In this document: positions 4,070 through 12,459 of the stretch, one piece after another
Position numbering within the stretch: the first letter of the stretch is position 1
Layout of the letters: every line of letters begins with the position of its first letter
DNA from: a virus
IMG/VR virus record: IMGVR_UViG_3300034630_000006
Location: 1-22,293 of that record
Direction: 5' to 3' (one strand)
DNA length: 22,293 nucleotides
The notes under the pieces: model-generated
Databases searched by the model: none
What the model was told of the DNA's origin: nothing
The model's input: only the letters and a program-made list of their open reading frames with translations
Position numbers and translations under genes: made by a program

Positions 4070-4366
4070 TTAAAACCCGCGGGTGACGGCGAGGTAAGCG
4101 ACCAGGCACAGGACCCAGAATAGCGCGGCAAAGAGTGTGCCCATACCCGAGCTGAGCAGATAGCGGCCGTTTTCCTGGTGCTTCAGGCCCAACCAGTTGA
4201 AGCCGGTGCCGGCGGCGTAGAGGTCTTCAACCTTTATCCTGCCGAAGCTGAGGAACGGTACGAGGACGCGCGCCACACGATGCAGGAGAAAGCCGACGAC
4301 GATGATATCGAGAATGTCGAGGACGATCCCAGCGATGGCGTCCAGGGCAACTCCGACTTTCTTCAT
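4070..4366 (-). CDS. two-helix membrane protein
   Basis: The 98-residue product starts MKKVGVALDAIAG with GGGGA about 8 bases upstream on the minus strand. It has a first hydrophobic region at about 5-28 (IAGIVLDILDIIVVGFLL), a soluble loop with SFGRIKVEDLYAAGTGFNWLG and a second hydrophobic segment at about 76-94 (LFAALFWVLCLVAYLAV). It is the first gene of the minus-strand operon, beginning about 108 bases from the LexA-like box copy at 4483-4497. In-frame starts up to 4519 exist but would run through that box. No family is recognised; the product is predicted to be an inner-membrane protein. Confidence 0.6.
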   Translation of the reverse strand: MKKVGVALDAIAGIVLDILDIIVVGFLLHRVARVLVPFLSFGRIKVEDLYAAGTGFNWLGLKHQENGRYLLSSGMGTLFAALFWVLCLVAYLAVTRGF

Positions 4367-4463
4367 GCTGCAAATCCCCGAGATGTCAAACCGATGCCAC
4401 CGAGATAACGGCGAAGGCAAACAAAACTTCGACGCGCGGTAAAGTGGCGGTCGCCATCGTGCT

Positions 4464-4501
4464 TTCGCACATGGGTAGCGCGGAACAAAAGCAGAATCAA
4501 G
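4464..4501. repeat. 38-bp direct repeat, copy 1
   Basis: This stretch matches 5713-5750 at 36 of 38 positions, the only differences being TG (4472-4473) versus GC (5721-5722). The last 28 bases (4474-4501) are identical in the two copies. Each copy lies in the gap between a leftward gene (here 4366) and a rightward gene (here 4614) and contains a LexA-like box, so it is a duplicated control region and not a random repeat. Confidence 0.9.
4472..4500 (-). promoter_or_regulatory. candidate SOS-controlled promoter with LexA-like box
   Basis: Positions 4483-4497 read GAACAAAAGCAGAAT, that is ATTC-N7-GTTC on the minus strand, matching 7 of 8 fixed bases of the GTTC-N7-GTTC box known for alphaproteobacterial LexA. 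Reading leftward, TTGATT (4500-4495) and TACCCA (4477-4472) are 17 bases apart, a plausible if weak sigma-70 pair that the box overlaps. It would drive the membrane-protein genes from 4366 leftward; control of the rightward gene at 4614 is also possible. Confidence 0.5.
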
Positions 4502-4613: not shown

Positions 4614-5231
4614 ATGGAAGATTTCATTTTTCCGGGCCGTGCGAAGCCCGGCTCCGGAACCGTTGACAAGCGCAATCTGCCAAGCCGCGGCGCGGGAAAT
4701 CTAAGCCCCGAGGATGCGAGGGCCTATGCCGACGACCTTTTGCGCAGCGCTCTTGAGGACCCGTCGGCATATACGGCGGAAGGGCTGCGGAAATCTCTGG
4801 GTAAGCTGTCTGAGGGTGGTGACGGGACCTACAGCGCCAGGCCGCGGAAGGGCCTCGGTGGGATGCAGGGAAATCTTGAGGGCGTAAAGACCGAACTTAA
4901 CACCCTGCAGTCCGAGGTCAAGAACGTCGACGGGATGGCGGCTCTGAAGGATATCGTTTCGTCGATCCAATCGATGCAGGAGCTGCTGGCCGACAAGGAA
5001 CAACAGGGCTTCTATGAGGATCCTTATAGAAATCAGCCGAAGTTGCCGGACAATTGCGAAGAGCTCCCCTGGAACAACTCATCGCAGGCGCGGCCCATTT
5101 CCCTCGGGGCCTCGAATGGCAACAAGGATGCGCCACAGCCCTTCCGCTGCGTAACGCCTCCTACGCCCTGGAACAACCCGAAGCGGCAGCCCATTTCACT
5201 GAGGAAAGCGCTCGACACATGGAGGGAGTGA
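4614..5231 (+). CDS. unknown protein with a repeated PWNN...PISL motif
   Basis: The 205-residue product begins MEDFIFPGRAKPG; GAAGGA seven bases before the ATG at 4614 supports this start over a GTG at 4560. It is hydrophilic, with a helical, charged centre (GNLEGVKTELNTLQSEVKNV, then an Ile/Gln-rich helix) likely to form a coiled coil. The C-terminal third carries two copies of a short motif: LPWNNSSQARPISLGAS and TPWNNPKRQPISLRKAL. No signal peptide, membrane segment or known domain is visible. It may be a virion or effector-like protein; I cannot choose. Its stop is 13 bases from the stop of the minus-strand gene 5245-5655. The upstream gap contains repeat copy 1. Confidence 0.65.
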   Translation: MEDFIFPGRAKPGSGTVDKRNLPSRGAGNLSPEDARAYADDLLRSALEDPSAYTAEGLRKSLGKLSEGGDGTYSARPRKGLGGMQGNLEGVKTELNTLQSEVKNVDGMAALKDIVSSIQSMQELLADKEQQGFYEDPYRNQPKLPDNCEELPWNNSSQARPISLGASNGNKDAPQPFRCVTPPTPWNNPKRQPISLRKALDTWRE

Positions 5232-5244
5232 GGGGTCGTTCTGG

Positions 5245-5655
5245 CTATTTGAGGCTTTCGAGCGCGATGTAGAGTGTGCCGAGTTTCAGGCGGCCGGCGC
5301 CTGTCTTGTAGTAGAGCACTTCGGCGTGCGGGCGGACGTTTGCGACGGAGGTCTCGTAAGTTCCATCCGCGAAGAAGCAGCAGGGATTGTCGCCATCCCA
5401 GGACGACGCAACACGCAGGCGGTAGCTGTCGTAGCCCATGAAGAAGCGTAAGCCGATCTCATAATCGCCGACCGTGAGGGTGCAGACGCTGTTATCGCCG
5501 CACCAGTTCGTCGCGTGATCAAAGGTCTTGTCGTCCTTGAGCAGAAAGGCCTTGACGAGGTAGCGCGGCTCTCCCGATTGGCCGCTCGCCGAGGTGGGCG
5601 AAACCGCTGCGGCCAGAAGCAGGCCTGCCAATCCCAGGCTCGATAGTCTTCTCAT
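5245..5655 (-). CDS. secreted beta-rich protein of unknown function
   Basis: From the ATG at 5655 (GAGGAA just upstream) the product is 136 residues, beginning with a signal peptide (MRRLSSLGLAGLLLAAAVSP, cleavage near SAS-GQ). The mature part looks like a small beta-rich domain: YLVKAFLLKDDKTFDHAT, WCGDNSVCTLTVGDYEIGLRFF, then DNPCCFFADGTYETSV and a final LYYKTGAGRLKLGTLYIALE. Four Cys (a CxxxxxC pair and a CC pair) suit disulfides in the periplasm. I do not recognise the family. An in-frame ATG at 5685 would put 10 extra residues before the signal peptide and is less likely. The gene reads leftward from the second repeat copy. Confidence 0.7.
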   Translation of the reverse strand: MRRLSSLGLAGLLLAAAVSPTSASGQSGEPRYLVKAFLLKDDKTFDHATNWCGDNSVCTLTVGDYEIGLRFFMGYDSYRLRVASSWDGDNPCCFFADGTYETSVANVRPHAEVLYYKTGAGRLKLGTLYIALESLK

Positions 5656-5712: not shown

Positions 5713-5750
5713 TTCGCACAGCGGTAGCGCGGAACAAAAGCAGAATCAAG
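5713..5750. repeat. 38-bp direct repeat, copy 2
   Basis: Same orientation as 4464-4501, with 36 of 38 bases identical and a perfect 28-bp core at 5723-5750. The two copies bracket a 1.2-kb unit holding one rightward and one leftward gene, so homologous exchange between them could delete or swap that unit. Confidence 0.9.
5721..5749 (-). promoter_or_regulatory. candidate SOS-controlled promoter with LexA-like box, copy 2
   Basis: GAACAAAAGCAGAAT at 5732-5746 is identical to the box in copy 1 and fits the alphaproteobacterial LexA box at 7 of 8 fixed bases. On the minus strand TTGATT (5749-5744) is followed 17 bases on by TACCGC (5726-5721), a poor -10. It lies 66 bases upstream of the secreted-protein gene starting at 5655 and 60 bases before the plus-strand gene at 5810. 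Confidence 0.5.
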
Positions 5751-5809
5751 GCAGCGTTCGACGCAAAATTTCGATCGAAAGCAATCGCTCTCCAACTGAG
5801 GTCCACAGC

Positions 5810-7256: not shown

Positions 7257-8252
7257 ATGGCTGTCGTAGCAAACACCTTCACGACCTCGCAGGCCGTGGG
7301 CAACCGCGAGGATCTTTCCGACGTCGTTTCCCGCATTACGCCGGAGGATACGCCGATCTATTCGCTCATCGAAAAGGGCAAGTGCAACACGCACCACCCG
7401 GAATGGGAGACGGACGAACTGGCCGCGCCCGGCGAAAACATCCGCCAGGAAGGCGACGAATACACCTTCGGCACGATCATCGCTCCGACCAGGCTCGGCA
7501 ACTACACCCAGATTCTGCGCAAGGACTGGATCATCTCGGCCACCCAGGAAGTGGTGGCGGAAGCCGGCAACGTGCAGAAGCGCAAATACCAGAAGCTGAA
7601 GAAGGGCGTGGAGATCCGCAAGGATCTCGAATATGCGATCGCCGACACCAATGCTTCCGTCTCCGGCGCCACCCGTGAACTCGGCTCGCTGCCGACCTGG
7701 CTGACGACCAACGTCTCGCGCGGGGCAGGCGGCGCCAATGGCGGCTACAACCCGACGACGGGCCTGACGGTGTCGCCGACCGACGGCACGCAACGCCCCT
7801 TCACCAAGGCGATCCTCGACCAGGTGATGCAGACGGGCTACCAGAACGGCGCCAACTTCCGCCATGTCTCGGTTTCGCCTTACGTCAAGAGCGTGTTCGT
7901 CACCTTCATGTCCGACGCCAACGTGGCGCCGTTCCGCTACGCCGTCTCGCAGGGCGGCGAGCGCAACACGATCGTGGCGACCGCCGACTACTATGAAGGC
8001 CCGTTCGGCACCGTGATGATCCACCCGAACCGGGTGCAGGCGGGCAGCGCCAAGCTTGCGCGCAACGCCTACTTCCTCGACACCGACATGCTCTCCTTCC
8101 TCTGGCTGCGCAACATCCAGGAAGACAAGGCGGTGGCCAAGACCGGCGACGCGGACAAGGGCGTGATCATCGGCGAGGGAACGCTGAAGGTGCACAACGA
8201 AAAGGGCCTCGGCGTTGCGGCCGACTTGTTTGGGTTGAGCGCTGCGAGCTGA
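7257..8252 (+). CDS. major capsid protein (DUF5309 / SU10-like)
   Basis: The 331-residue product is recognisable as a DUF5309-type major capsid protein (HK97 fold). It begins NTFTTSQAVGNREDLSDVV, continues with RITPEDTPIYSLIEKGK, EWETDELAAP, and TQILRKDWIISATQEVV, and ends with the typical DMLSFLWLRNIQED ... HNEKGLGVAADLFGL. AAGGA lies 7 bases upstream of the ATG. It follows the scaffold gene. A second, broken copy of its 3' end is found at 11220-11448. A stem-loop follows at 8309-8330, after which the order of head genes is interrupted by a 4.5-kb accessory block. Confidence 0.93.
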   Translation: MAVVANTFTTSQAVGNREDLSDVVSRITPEDTPIYSLIEKGKCNTHHPEWETDELAAPGENIRQEGDEYTFGTIIAPTRLGNYTQILRKDWIISATQEVVAEAGNVQKRKYQKLKKGVEIRKDLEYAIADTNASVSGATRELGSLPTWLTTNVSRGAGGANGGYNPTTGLTVSPTDGTQRPFTKAILDQVMQTGYQNGANFRHVSVSPYVKSVFVTFMSDANVAPFRYAVSQGGERNTIVATADYYEGPFGTVMIHPNRVQAGSAKLARNAYFLDTDMLSFLWLRNIQEDKAVAKTGDADKGVIIGEGTLKVHNEKGLGVAADLFGLSAAS

Positions 8253-8409: not shown

Positions 8410-9228
8410 GTGACCAAACAGGACAAACCGCTGAATTCGATGGGGCTACCCGTCAGAATCCAATCCGTTCGAGAGGCGATGGGGTACTTCGACGAAAATC
8501 CGATATTGACCGGCAACAAGGCTTTTGCCGACGTGGAGGCGCGGCGCGGTGAGAACGCACTCTTCAAGCATCCGCCGCCGAGCGAACTTATGAACGGCGA
8601 TTTTCGCAAGGCACCGATGCACTTTCGCGGTACGCTGACGGATACCACGAAGTTCAGCAAGCAACATCAGGCGGTGCCAACCGAGCGCCTAAAGCCGACC
8701 ACGGACTACGACAAACTCTCGGATAACATCGCGTTGCGTCTGAAGCGAGATCTGCAACGGGATCTGATCATGACCGAACAGGACGCTGCCGCCTTCGTCG
8801 GAAATTTCGACCACGAAAGCGGCGGATTCGGACGGGTGTTCGGCAATTTGTGGCAAAATGGCCGGGTAAACGGAAATGCTTATGGCTATCCGCAATGGGA
8901 CGATCGCAGGGAAGCTTTCTTCAACTGGGCGGAAGAGCGCGGGCTGCCGCCCGAATCCTATGAGGCAAATTATGGCTTCATAAAGCACGAACTCCTCAAT
9001 GGCGAGCGTGGTGTACGGGAGCCGTTGTCGACTGCCAAGGATATCGACGACGCTACATACGTCGTCGCCGACAAGTACGAGCGTCCCAACCCCGCCAAGA
9101 TGAAGCTTGGAGAGCGTCAAGAGTTGGCGCGGCGAGCGCTGGGGCTTCCGGATTACTCTGTCGAGACACCCGTTCCCCCTGCCAATCCGATGCGCAATCC
9201 CATCTCAGATCCACCCTGGCGGCGCTAG
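8410..9228 (+). CDS. phage tail-lysozyme-domain protein
   Basis: From the GTG at 8410 (AGAGG upstream) the product is 272 residues. Residues about 115-245 match the phage tail lysozyme pattern: TEQDAAAFVGNFDHESGGFG with the probable catalytic Glu at 136, YGYPQWDDRREAFFNWAEERG, NYGFIKHELLNGERG and a final YVVADKYERPNPA. The ~110 residues before it have no recognised domain and could anchor it in the particle. Such enzymes cut peptidoglycan during DNA entry, unlike the endolysin at 20527. Because it has no signal peptide, a virion role is more likely than secretion. Its place right after the capsid gene, inside an accessory block, is unusual, since these domains normally sit with tail genes. 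An alternative is an effector or lysis accessory. Confidence 0.75.
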   Translation: MTKQDKPLNSMGLPVRIQSVREAMGYFDENPILTGNKAFADVEARRGENALFKHPPPSELMNGDFRKAPMHFRGTLTDTTKFSKQHQAVPTERLKPTTDYDKLSDNIALRLKRDLQRDLIMTEQDAAAFVGNFDHESGGFGRVFGNLWQNGRVNGNAYGYPQWDDRREAFFNWAEERGLPPESYEANYGFIKHELLNGERGVREPLSTAKDIDDATYVVADKYERPNPAKMKLGERQELARRALGLPDYSVETPVPPANPMRNPISDPPWRR

Positions 9229-9368
9229 GCGGCATCAAGGGTGTGGCCGTGGCCGAAGGACGGTCGTGTCACAGTTCACACGATTCCGCTGCCATTACCG
9301 AGTTCGTCAAGGCGGCAACTGTGGTTGGCTGTGCCGGGTAAAAGATACGATTTCTTCTCAACAATGCC

Positions 9369-9397
9369 TTGTGTTCGTTCTCTTAATGTTCTACAAG
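9369..9397 (+). promoter_or_regulatory. SOS promoter with a perfect LexA-type box
   Basis: GTTCTCTTAATGTTC at 9377-9391 matches GTTC-N7-GTTC exactly. It fills the 17-base spacer between TTGTGT (9369-9374) and TACAAG (9392-9397), so bound LexA would block polymerase. It lies 123 bases before the start of the triple-repeat gene at 9521. The arrangement is repeated at 11679-11707. Confidence 0.75.
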
Positions 9398-9520: not shown

Positions 9521-11170
9521 GTGTTCAGGTGGTGCGTGTCGGCCCTGGCGGCCTTGTTTGTCTTGAGTTCGGCGATCCCGGCGGCGTCCTCGCAACCGTC
9601 ATCCGGCAGTGCAAGACAGGTTTTTGGCGCGTTCCTCGCCTGCAAGGCGGACATCTTTTCGCTTCTCGGCGGTGACAGGGCGGATTTTGGCGCAGCAGTG
9701 ATCGGGCCCTATGACTGGAGCATGTCGGATGGTGTCACAGGGCAAACGATCGCGTTCGCGGCGCCTGTCGACGTCGGTAGCCTGTCGCTCACCGGCTATG
9801 TCCAGTTTGAGGCCGTCGGCATTGCTGTTCCGCACTTCACGTGGGGTTTTGAGGTCGAGCGGCGCGTATCTGACGTCGCCAAGGCGATCGAGGCAATGCT
9901 TCCCGGTGCCAGGTTCGTGGCAAAGGATGGTGGTGCGCTCGAGTTGAAGCTCGATGCCCAATCGGTTCCGCAGGGCGACGCATCGGTCGCGCCGGAGGAC
10001 AGTTACAGAAAAATCGTCGTTCGCCAGGCAAACGATCCTTCGCGATCCTTCGTCATGTGTGACGCGTCCAAGGATCGAATGGCGGAACTGACGACCGATG
10101 AGGAGACTGGCAGGAGGCGCCTCCCGGACGCTGAGGACCTGTTCCCACCGGCGAGGCGGCCAGCCGTCAAGACCAACCATGTTCTTGACGCGTTCGTCGC
10201 CTGCAAGCCCTCTTTCTTCGAGGTGTTGAAGGCTGAAAGACGCATCTTCCCGCGGGTCCGTATCGAGCCTTGGGAGAGCCCGGACAACGCGCCTCACATT
10301 CCCGAAGCGGAGAAGACCTACAACGAAACCGTGACATTCGAACACCTGGTCGAGATTGGTGGCCTCCGCATCGTCCGGTTCTTTCAACGAAAGACGGTTC
10401 AGTCTGGTGAACCGACGCGCTTTGCCTGGGCCCTTCAGGTCGCTCAAACGCCCGATGGAGCCGCTCGTGCTATCTCGGCTCAGTACGGTGCGAGATTTAC
10501 GGATTACTGGAGTTTGGTTGACAAGGATGTCGGTGCCACGCCGGTTTCGCAGCACCTGACGTTGCGTTCCTACTTCGATCCCGATGAGCAGGCGACGGTA
10601 ACCTGCGCACCCGACGAAGCCGAGACGAAGGACTTTCGCCTGCCGGAAGCAGCCGAGACCTTCGGCTGGGCCCAACTTGGGCCACCACCGGTGGGCCGCG
10701 GCAACCGGCTGATCAATGCGCTGCTGCAATGCCGGGCGGATTTCTTCGAGGCGCTGGGCGAGGAAAAAAATGCTTTCGGCAAGGTGGCGTTCAAGCAGGC
10801 CGCCGGCCCATACCGCAAGGATGGAGACGCAGAACGCGCGCCAATGCGTGTGGCGTTCGAAAAGCCGGTCTATGCCTCGGGCTTCACGCTGACAGGATAC
10901 ATTCAGCGGCGCGTGAATGTTGCAGGCGAGATGAAACTGAGATGGGGTTTTCAATCACCGGACGGCATGAGCAGGATCGAGCGGACCACGGAGAGACGCA
11001 CAGGAAGCGTTCGTGTGTCCGGCAAGGGGTGGTTGTTCGACCTTGAGACCGACGAAACCGGCTACACACCGTCTTCGGATCTCGAGTTTGACGAGGGATT
11101 CTTGGGGTGCACGACGCCGCTCGCATCAGGCATGGAACTGCTGAAATCCGGTGACCTCTTTTTGAAATAA
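9521..11170 (+). CDS. secreted protein with three Cys-bracketed repeat domains
   Basis: The 549-residue protein starts at a GTG with GGAGGG just upstream and has a Sec signal peptide (cleavage near AASS-Q25). Three domains follow, each opening with a Cys in an [AL]xxC[KR]xxFFxxL-like motif and closing with a Cys: C41-C180, C228-C362, C404-C530. Domains 1 and 3 share a central xFxxPVxxxxxxLTGYxQ motif and W-G-F about a dozen residues on; domain 2 is more diverged. The Cys pairs suggest one disulfide per domain in the periplasm or outside the cell. Apart from C5 in the signal peptide there are no other Cys. I do not recognise the family. One further copy of the domain is in the protein at 11767-12459. 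A perfect LexA-type box precedes the gene, so it is probably induced with DNA damage. Superinfection exclusion or lysis control are guesses only. Confidence 0.85.
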   Translation: MFRWCVSALAALFVLSSAIPAASSQPSSGSARQVFGAFLACKADIFSLLGGDRADFGAAVIGPYDWSMSDGVTGQTIAFAAPVDVGSLSLTGYVQFEAVGIAVPHFTWGFEVERRVSDVAKAIEAMLPGARFVAKDGGALELKLDAQSVPQGDASVAPEDSYRKIVVRQANDPSRSFVMCDASKDRMAELTTDEETGRRRLPDAEDLFPPARRPAVKTNHVLDAFVACKPSFFEVLKAERRIFPRVRIEPWESPDNAPHIPEAEKTYNETVTFEHLVEIGGLRIVRFFQRKTVQSGEPTRFAWALQVAQTPDGAARAISAQYGARFTDYWSLVDKDVGATPVSQHLTLRSYFDPDEQATVTCAPDEAETKDFRLPEAAETFGWAQLGPPPVGRGNRLINALLQCRADFFEALGEEKNAFGKVAFKQAAGPYRKDGDAERAPMRVAFEKPVYASGFTLTGYIQRRVNVAGEMKLRWGFQSPDGMSRIERTTERRTGSVRVSGKGWLFDLETDETGYTPSSDLEFDEGFLGCTTPLASGMELLKSGDLFLK

Positions 11171-11219: not shown

Positions 11220-11448
11220 CGTCTCGCGCGGGGCAGGCGGGCAGCGCGAATCTCGCGCGCAACGCCTACTTCCTCGACACCGACATGCTCTCCTTCCTCT
11301 GGCTGCGCAACATCCAGGAGGACAAGGCGGTGGCCAAAGCCGGCGACGCCGACAAGGGCTGATCATCGGCGAGGGTACGTTGAAGGTGCACAACGAAAAG
11401 GGCCTCGGCGTTGCCGCAGATCTGTTTTGGCTGAGTGCTGCGAATTGA
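11220..11448 (+). pseudogene. remnant of a second major capsid gene (3' end)
   Basis: Positions 11233-11448 match the last ~218 bases of the capsid gene (8036-8252) with about 20 differences by eye, mostly at third codon positions. The preceding bases (11220-11240) match an earlier part of the capsid gene (7712-7732) perfectly. The two parts join at an 8-base microhomology (GCAGGCGG), which corresponds to a 311-base internal deletion and shifts the frame. One base is also missing in GACAAGGGC-TGATC (near 11361), a second frameshift. The fragment has no start and cannot make capsid. Because the differences are largely silent, it comes from a related but separate phage capsid gene and is not a fresh copy of 7257-8252. 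Confidence 0.9.
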
Positions 11449-11678
11449 TCCCGGAGTCCTGCACATTGGAAAGGGGTGGACATTGGTTCGCCCCCGATCG
11501 ATCGAAAACTCGCTGCAGAGGCTGCCGTCGGGGCGAGCAGTGCGACGAGCATTCCGCTCTTGCCGTGGAGGCACTGCACGAAAAGCGGGATCTGCAGCGG
11601 ATGCAGGCTAACGTCGATGGCTGGCCGTCAAAACCTCCTCTGCACCGCATAAGCTGTGGAGATGGTTGGATTTCAACC
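11449..11678 (+). other. intergenic stretch after the capsid remnant
   Basis: No gene is supported. Short ORFs overlap in all frames with irregular composition and no ribosome binding sites. It may contain further decayed phage sequence, but I could not match it to anything else in the window. Confidence 0.3.
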
Positions 11679-11707
11679 TTGTGTTTGTTCTTGAAATGTT
11701 CTAGTAG
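11679..11707 (+). promoter_or_regulatory. SOS promoter with a perfect LexA-type box
   Basis: GTTCTTGAAATGTTC at 11687-11701 matches GTTC-N7-GTTC exactly. As in the promoter at 9369, it occupies the 17-base gap between TTGTGT (11679-11684) and a -10-like TAGTAG (11702-11707), and the preceding CCTTGTGTT is shared. The predicted leader to the domain gene is only ~35-60 bases long. Confidence 0.72.
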
Positions 11708-11766
11708 GCTGATGTCTGGTTACGCTCTGCAAATGAGGAGGCGGCACGAAGAGGTGGCTAAAGGTA

Positions 11767-12459
11767 TTGGTCTACACCGTTGTCACTCTCTTCGGGCTGT
11801 TCGTCGTGCTGGTCGGGCTGGTGTTGGCGACAATCGATCCCTATTCGTTTGAAGACATGAGCCGCGGCGGAATCTGCGAAAGAAGCGGTGGTGTAGTAGC
11901 GCCGGAATGCGCAATGCCACCGGAGAGCGCCGAGAAGGTGTTGGCTGCATTGCTCACGTGCGACGCCCAATTCTTCAAGACCCTTGACGAAGAGAAGGCT
12001 GTTTTCAAGAGGGCGAATATCGTGGCTCACCCTTACAACCTTCTCGACGCAGGCGAGCCGCGGACTTCCGTTGTGCCGTTCTCTCAGCCCGTCGAGGCGT
12101 ACGGACTTCACCTCACCGGTTACACGCAACAGGCCGTGCGGGGAAAGAGCGACTACGCGTGGGGGTTTTATGCGTCGGAACAGCCTGACGACGTCGAGCG
12201 CGCACTGGAAGCAGCCCGCAGCGACGCGCTTGCAGCAAACCCACGCGCCGGCGCGTTCGTGATAACGGCATCCGACACCCCTGATTTTCCTGGAACACGG
12301 CTTGGTTGTCGCGTTGCCGGGGATGGCGCCTCCACCATCGAGGACTTGCCGTCGGTTTACGATCTGTTCCTGTCTCGAGACATCACTACTTCACTCTTCG
12401 ACAAGTTCGATCTCTTCGTCGCGTCGGCGATGAAGACCGTTTCGGATTTTGGGCGATAG
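11767..12459 (+). CDS. membrane-anchored single-domain relative of the triple-repeat protein
   Basis: The frame opens with a hydrophobic segment (VYTVVTLFGLFVVLVGLVLAT), probably an uncleaved signal anchor, then a short linker with two Cys and one copy of the Cys-bracketed domain: LAALLTCDAQFFKTLDEEKAVF (C65), VPFSQPVEAYGLHLTGYTQQ, YAWGF, closing with TRLGC (C181). The listed start is a TTG, the first standard start in frame, giving 230 residues. However, seven codons earlier an ACG at 11746 would give (M)KRWLKVLVYTVV, a typical anchor start, and GAGGAGG sits 4 bases before it. So the true start may be ACG or a mutated ATG. The domain is shared with 9521-11170 and both genes have the same SOS promoter design. 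Function unknown; predicted to face the periplasm. Confidence 0.75.
   Translation: MVYTVVTLFGLFVVLVGLVLATIDPYSFEDMSRGGICERSGGVVAPECAMPPESAEKVLAALLTCDAQFFKTLDEEKAVFKRANIVAHPYNLLDAGEPRTSVVPFSQPVEAYGLHLTGYTQQAVRGKSDYAWGFYASEQPDDVERALEAARSDALAANPRAGAFVITASDTPDFPGTRLGCRVAGDGASTIEDLPSVYDLFLSRDITTSLFDKFDLFVASAMKTVSDFGR

Follow-up and report, generated by a model that had tools for sequence, protein, structure and literature searches.

LexA-type boxes in the promoters of two related genes of a prophage cassette array, and a proposed role for their predicted exported products

The window, by which we mean the whole stretch of 22,293 bases analysed here (IMG/VR virus record IMGVR_UViG_3300034630_000006), is assigned to a pCB2047-like podoviral prophage with an SU10-type capsid, its major capsid protein having 83% identity with the Rhizobium phage RHph_Y25 protein and 72% with the proteins of Sulfitobacter phages pCB2047-A and -C. 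An array of cassettes begins at the capsid gene, with two units in the window, each with a promoter and a gene for a member of one protein family (hereafter the family genes and proteins). The features, all on the plus strand, are as follows.

7257–8252 (+): major capsid protein gene, SU10-type (PF17236, E = 4e-82; phrog_1328, E = 3e-111), where the array begins
8410–9228 (+): unit 1 enzyme, lysozyme-like (PF18013, Phage_lysozyme2, E = 6.7e-20), without export signal (no hydrophobic N-terminus)
9368–9373 (+): −35-like element CTTGTG of the unit 1 promoter
9377–9391 (+): LexA-type box 1, GTTCTCTTAATGTTC, before the three-domain gene
9391–9396 (+): −10-like element CTACAA of the unit 1 promoter, 17-base spacer
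9521–11170 (+): unit 1 family protein, 549 aa, GTG start, predicted signal peptide, three two-cysteine domains
11230–11443 (+): copy of the capsid gene 3′ end (capsid gene nt 777–991), 91.6% identical to the window capsid gene, left edge of unit 2
11562–11642 (+): unit 2 enzyme remnant, 27 aa, DUF6973-like (81% identity to residues 201–227 of the L111 enzyme, E = 2e-12)
11678–11683 (+): −35-like element CTTGTG of the unit 2 promoter
11687–11701 (+): LexA-type box 2, GTTCTTGAAATGTTC, before the single-domain gene
11701–11706 (+): −10-like element CTAGTA of the unit 2 promoter, 17-base spacer
11746–12459 (+): unit 2 family protein, single domain, ~230 aa, membrane-anchored N-terminus

Both promoters resemble the rhizobial sigma-70 form CTTGAC-N17-CTATAT. 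The original prediction had placed the box GTTCTTGAAATGTTC at 11687–11701, in the same 17-base slot and behind the same sequence as the box of the upstream gene; its letters and coordinates are correct, and slot and preceding sequence are indeed common to both promoters, CCTTGTGTT lying at 11677–11685 and 9367–9375 and ending one base ahead of the respective box. Aligned over 60 bases, as had been proposed, the two promoters are identical at 32 positions, with the matches clustered in the promoter core. That two such matches were very unlikely by chance, as also claimed, holds for the full design but not for the bare box: CTTGN5GTTCN7GTTCTA matches the window twice and none of 400 dinucleotide shuffles, whereas bare GTTCN7GTTC occurs three times versus 1.04 expected, and three or more copies arose in 10 of 100 shuffles. 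On a promoter matrix trained on 30 sites, the window sites excluded, the two promoters reach 47.3 and 45.0, against 5.0 for the runner-up in the window and at most 7.3 in 12 shuffles. Since GTTCN7GTTC is also too common in the 7.5-Mb genome of Ensifer adhaerens ST2 (G001; 232 occurrences versus 160 for the reversed control), we dropped bare-box statistics as evidence. The third bare box of the window, at 10181–10195, was ruled out as an operator by its position inside the 549-aa gene; its identical 15 bases recur at the same gene position in three other loci (L005, L006 and L009).

Two minus-strand promoters of a different design (ATTCN7GTTC), possibly related to the above, lie outside the cassette array.

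5722–5751 (−): promoter before a secreted cargo gene (5245–5655)
4474–4501 (−): second copy, before a membrane-protein cargo gene (4070–4369)

They are near-identical (TTGATTCTGCTTTTGTTCCGCGCTACC, with an imperfect box), and this promoter is kept before homologues with as little as ~44% identity in related prophages. We rejected them as instances of the window-box design and list them separately because the better one scores only −3.7 on the matrix. A further cargo gene upstream of the capsid region, for an M20 peptidase (594–1781), has a perfect GTTCN7GTTC box in front in two of three relatives (L148 and L141) and none before the L025 and window copies.

GTTC-N7-GTTC is the published LexA motif of the alpha-proteobacteria (PMC3323433). 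When the last two bases of the core were restricted to (A/T)T, the box was found 37 times in G001 versus 6 for the control, and 33 versus 14 times in a second genome, G002. Some of these sites stand before host genes that we take, with the help of Pfam matches, to be uvrA, dinB (IMS), a comM-like Mg-chelatase gene, a UvrD helicase gene, and SRAP, minC and radical-SAM genes; others lie within genes or ahead of genes with no assigned identity. In the same E. adhaerens genome, which also carries the same kind of prophage, GTTCN7GTTC boxes in opposite orientation lie ahead of lexA, at ~50 b, and of recA, at ~130 b. The window promoters thus share with the alpha-proteobacterial LexA regulon a direct-repeat operator that overlaps the promoter and that also stands before lexA, recA, uvrA, dinB and the comM-like gene, but differ in where it is placed, within the 17-base gap of a fixed CTTG-N17-CTA promoter that prophage cargo reuses. 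Because the motif matches the published one and the same box precedes these host SOS genes, the prediction of a LexA-type operator is upheld and the assignment of the cassette box as a putative host SOS (LexA) operator is strongly supported; the cassette promoters would then be induced by DNA damage. As a separate observation on the host, the SOS-type box upstream of minC (GTTCTTGTTATGTTC, ~280 b upstream; locus L057 of G001) would bring the control of the division site in Ensifer under the influence of DNA damage.

The two window genes, originally described as related, share a ~140-aa domain that iterated HMM searches found in many prophages, and their products belong to one new domain family. 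Across 66 domains, two cysteines (C13 and C129) and one phenylalanine are invariant, and 39 of 40 non-redundant family proteins are hydrophobic at the N-terminus, as a signal peptide or anchor would be. Family proteins had no PHROG, no Pfam match above cut-off and no PDB sequence match (E ≤ 1), the 549-aa protein matched no NCBIfam model and no annotated phage record, and the PADLOC-DB defence models gave 0 matches for five proteins at E ≤ 0.05. A structural model of the single domain is of fair quality (mean pLDDT 76.7, pTM 0.72) and mixed alpha/beta, and searches with Foldseek against PDB and BFVD and with VIA-align returned no convincing fold match, the best Z being 3.7, to unrelated chains, and the lowest Foldseek E-value 0.0055 (63 columns). 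dN/dS is 0.22 for the three-domain gene (median of 36 pairs) and 0.31 for the single-domain gene (15 pairs), compared with 0.06 for the capsid gene, values which indicate that the family proteins are constrained, yet evolving faster than the capsid protein. The family is narrowly distributed: alignment A1 matched 9 of the 16 genus genomes and at least 4 of the 297 in the host family sample, and alignment A4 at least 2 of the 397 in the order sample, one of these two more weakly. With at most 13 (family sample) or 8 (order sample) candidates scored per genome, weak members may have escaped the last two counts. In the window, the single-domain gene has ACG at 11746–11748, in the place of the ATG seen in 7 of 7 aligned relatives, and its first listed start is a TTG at 11767, from which a membrane-anchored product could still be made. 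Unit 2 thus keeps its box intact before an orphan gene whose start is weakened.

The promoter is closely tied to these genes. CTTG-N5-GTTC-N7-GTTC-TA occurs at 15 sites in 8 of the 16 Ensifer-group genomes (reversed control, 1), all 15 of them, by coordinates, just upstream of a family gene, and the full design was not found away from family genes in any of the 16. The possibility raised with the prediction, that such boxes would prove frequent at random positions, is therefore true of the bare box and untrue of the full design. At loci collected by protein similarity alone (41 non-redundant genes, each preceded by 400 b or more of sequence, promoters being sought within 420 b before domain 1), TTGN5GTTCN7GTTC is perfect in 31, has one mismatch in 2 and is lacking in 8; seven of these eight stand directly behind another family gene (two are fragments) and the eighth is L015. 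Put differently, 32 of the 33 family genes that do not directly follow another have the promoter, which is perfect in 30 and has a single mismatch in 2, compared with 2.5% of random 420-b windows of the same loci having the perfect pattern, real promoters included. With pattern-found loci added, GTTCN7GTTC is perfect in 34 of 46 genes; in the 41- and the 46-gene counts alike, redundancy was judged by domain 1 start and N-truncated genes were dropped. When viral contigs were searched for the DNA pattern only, it turned up 24 times, in 21 stretches. At 18 of these sites a family gene follows immediately; at a nineteenth (L023) the stretch ends too early, but its contig has a relative in the expected position, and the remaining five have no family gene. 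In the 4801-b viral stretch L031, the same promoter pattern precedes an unrelated 307-aa gene. Over 33 sites, part of them from the pattern search itself, TTG and both GTTC are invariant, the three bases of the AAT that precedes the second GTTC are each conserved in 31, and the flanks are near random; many of the proteins behind this near-invariant core are only 20–30% identical. All such counts of promoters and neighbours are inflated, as cassettes kin by descent inherit promoter and neighbour jointly.

A cassette typically runs, in order, from a copy of the capsid 3′ end through an unexported enzyme gene and the SOS promoter to one or more family genes. The first unit follows the intact capsid gene and later ones follow partial capsid copies of ~50–540 b, mostly from the 3′ end of the gene, with up to three units in an array (clearest in L142). 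Of the copies longer than 150 b, 12 in number, one was left out because its own intact capsid gene is not in the stretch; 8 of the other 11 are closest to the capsid gene of their own prophage (one tied in identity), at up to 98%, and 3, including that of the window, are not. As most copies are closest to their own intact gene, recent internal duplication or continuing exchange with that gene is suggested for most arrays. Behind the capsid gene, RHph_Y25 and pCB2047-C have other small genes, and no cassette-type enzymes were found in the stretches examined there; the array therefore looks like an insertion. Phage morons are extra genes with their own promoter between the virion genes of a prophage. 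The cassettes likewise add own-promoter genes among virion genes, but unlike morons are inserted as multi-unit arrays jointed by capsid 3′-end copies. Judged by titles and abstract openings, searches of the open-licence literature (PMC) listed no paper on comparable cassettes, and the terms LexA, lysozyme, superinfection and Ensifer are absent from a paper on the evolution of these podoviruses (PMC10386132).

The enzymes fall into several classes: PF18013 lysozyme, Tlde1/YkuD L,D-transpeptidase-like, phrog_90 endolysin-like, DUF6973-like and an unassigned 393-aa type. Among the four Tlde1/YkuD enzymes scanned, one passes both Pfam cut-offs and three fall below, the Tlde1 bit scores (cut-off 30.1) being 30.4 for L146, 28.3 and 28.5 for the two L141 enzymes and 25.8 for L142. 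The three phrog_90 enzymes scanned match at E = 1.5e-17 to 3e-23. The DUF6973-like class has a weak match (E = 0.04), and a structural model of such an enzyme, built from five rows, has a mean pLDDT of 46.5. The cassette enzymes thus appear to be mostly peptidoglycan-active, an assignment that leaves out the DUF6973-like and 393-aa types. In unit 2 of the window, the enzyme is evidently deleted apart from its 27-aa remnant. None of 20 enzymes has a hydrophobic N-terminus, versus the 39 of 40 family proteins that do. Twelve enzyme rows outside PF18013 (from L111, L114, L115, L141, L142, L144–L147 and L149) have in common a C-terminal motif, approximately FW..L...RGSLKD...W.E, which the PF18013 enzymes lack; it also ends other ORFs of these phages and, by eye, is seen at 4614–5228 of the window. 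By analogy with the capsid targeting of T4 internal proteins, we infer that the motif is a possible sorting or virion-loading tag. This motif and the position behind the capsid gene are the basis on which the enzymes may be delivered by the virion.

The type of enzyme goes with the subtype of the family protein. When 26 family proteins were each labelled by the preceding enzyme, their tree required 5 label changes (minimum, 4), compared with a mean of 14.3 when shuffled, none of 200 shuffles being as low as 5; near-copies make this test too easy, but the split nonetheless holds between deep clades. The partners of Tlde1, DUF6973, endolysin and PF18013 enzymes form their own clades with two exceptions, a Tlde1 enzyme in L022 whose partner is close to the DUF6973-group partners, and an endolysin in L146 before a two-domain family protein, with which the two-domain PF18013 partners share a weakly supported fork. 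Left off the tree were L113 and the second promoters of G001 and L022 (no recognizable enzyme), the third unit of L143, and L013–L016; unit 1 of L147 holds a PF18013 remnant as well as a DUF6973-like gene and took its label from the remnant, which lies next to the box. Unit 1 of the window places a PF18013 enzyme beside the three-domain protein, and the DUF6973-like type of the unit 2 remnant is the usual companion of the single-domain protein elsewhere.

The reading of the whole that we favour, with somewhat better than even confidence, is that these are SOS-switched mobile cassettes whose family proteins act in the periplasm as inhibitors, or immunity proteins, of the neighbouring enzyme class and provide resistance to enzymes from other phages or from the lysates of kin. 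Its structural side (promoter design, host SOS context, cassette structure, coupling of enzyme and partner, the split in export, purifying selection) is read from sequence, and the inhibition and superinfection exclusion would be the activities of the family proteins. An inhibitor or immunity role is suggested because an exported partner adjoins a specific, unexported cell-wall enzyme. LexA bound in the promoter spacer would block RNA polymerase until DNA is damaged, and prophage induction would turn on the family gene. The exported protein could then wait in the periplasm for the matching enzyme to arrive from outside, making the induced cell resistant to the same enzymes from other phages (superinfection exclusion) or from kin lysates; LexA control would supply the protein once DNA damage has removed the immunity given by the prophage repressor. 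Stacked arrays and orphan partners might represent a stored repertoire against rivals with other enzymes, and unit 2 of the window would be an orphan inhibitor whose enzyme has been lost.

Three known systems offer comparisons. Spackle of phage T4 is described as a disulfide-bonded periplasmic protein, made early, which excludes superinfecting phages through selective inhibition of the virion lysozyme gp5 (PMC7677548). Like Spackle, the family protein is an exported phage protein with a conserved cysteine pair beside a lysozyme-type enzyme, for which periplasmic inhibition may be proposed by analogy, and its specific lysozyme partner is seen as a genomic pairing with the two exceptions above. 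Spackle, in contrast, is a helical bundle and the model of the family domain mixed alpha/beta, the above searches having detected no relation between them in sequence or fold, and the cassettes differ in their several enzyme classes, their stacking and an SOS operator in place of early phage gene expression. With the T6SS pair Tlde1a/Tldi1a, the cassettes share a Tlde1/L,D-transpeptidase domain beside an exported partner; that catalytic domain is found in one enzyme class only, which is not that of the window's own enzyme. They differ from that pair in lying in the phage capsid region, among capsid and tail genes and not in a known T6SS locus, and in having a partner family common to lysozyme and endolysin types, with its own SOS promoter. 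The lipoprotein Ltp of phage TP-J34 is described as a prophage-encoded surface protein that excludes other phages (PMC3952083), its target being the tape measure protein according to the title of a reference cited there. The cassette protein is likewise prophage-encoded and exported, and exclusion is proposed for it; Ltp differs in belonging to a Gram-positive host, and the available text of PMC3952083 mentions neither an enzyme partner nor an SOS operator for it.

We consider it rather unlikely, but worth serious attention, that the cassettes are antibacterial effector–immunity pairs, whose enzymes, freed with virions or lysates, would kill non-lysogens while the SOS-controlled partner protects producing and neighbouring lysogens, phage exclusion being a side effect or absent. 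Tlde1 is described as an effector domain used between bacteria, with Tldi1a as its cognate immunity protein (PMC9638812), stacked and orphan partners resemble the immunity arrays of polymorphic toxins, and weapons of this sort are usually under SOS control; rhizoviticin, a rhizobial tailocin, is reported to be recA-dependent (PMC10811719). Set against these points are the lack of an export signal in the enzymes and their site in the phage capsid region, and lysozyme and endolysin types would suit phage entry or exit equally. Less probable in our view is that family proteins modify the envelope or help lysis, acting in the same step as the adjoining enzyme. They are exported and SOS-timed, and a shared pathway would also make subtype follow enzyme type; this role sits poorly, however, with different subtypes of one domain tracking different enzyme chemistries, with the family gene having its own promoter, and with orphan copies such as unit 2 of the window persisting without an enzyme, as expected of immunity proteins and not of co-factors.

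The remaining alternatives concern the operator. We give low probability to its being bound by a LexA-like repressor of the prophage itself in place of host LexA, the genes then forming part of a phage induction circuit. A related alphaproteobacterial prophage-like region does encode a LexA-family repressor (PMC10811719), and the core of the cassette boxes, NTGNAAT, is tighter than the bare host motif, but the same genome has this box before lexA, recA, uvrA, dinB and further host genes, and because of this host LexA should bind the cassette box anyway. The window contains no repressor region. Inheritance from recent cassette duplication, with no function, would account for sites that all descend with their cassettes, several loci being near copies, but is scarcely credible for a near-invariant core with near-random flanks over 33 sites before proteins often 20–30% identical, with the same operator carried independently by host SOS genes.

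Returning to periplasmic inhibition of the neighbouring enzyme class, a wider version of that reading, which we offer tentatively and hold at less than even confidence, is that these prophages of soil bacteria maintain a recombining library of phage-delivered enzymes and periplasmic antidotes, added via copies of the capsid 3′ end, in which enzymes of several chemistries would be loaded into the virion by a common C-terminal tag and nearly all antidotes would be SOS-switched, so that exclusion is gained when repressor immunity breaks. The capsid 3′ end marks the joints at which cargo is added, and in most arrays these joints stay similar to the intact gene. The cassettes would link the SOS response, exclusion between phages and pairs of cell-wall enzymes and immunity proteins, which are usually studied separately. 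If the proposed role is true, the family would be a new one of peptidoglycan-enzyme inhibitors without a recognized fold, the target of each being named by its genomic neighbour, and exclusion would be timed to the moment of greatest need, at induction, when repressor immunity is gone.
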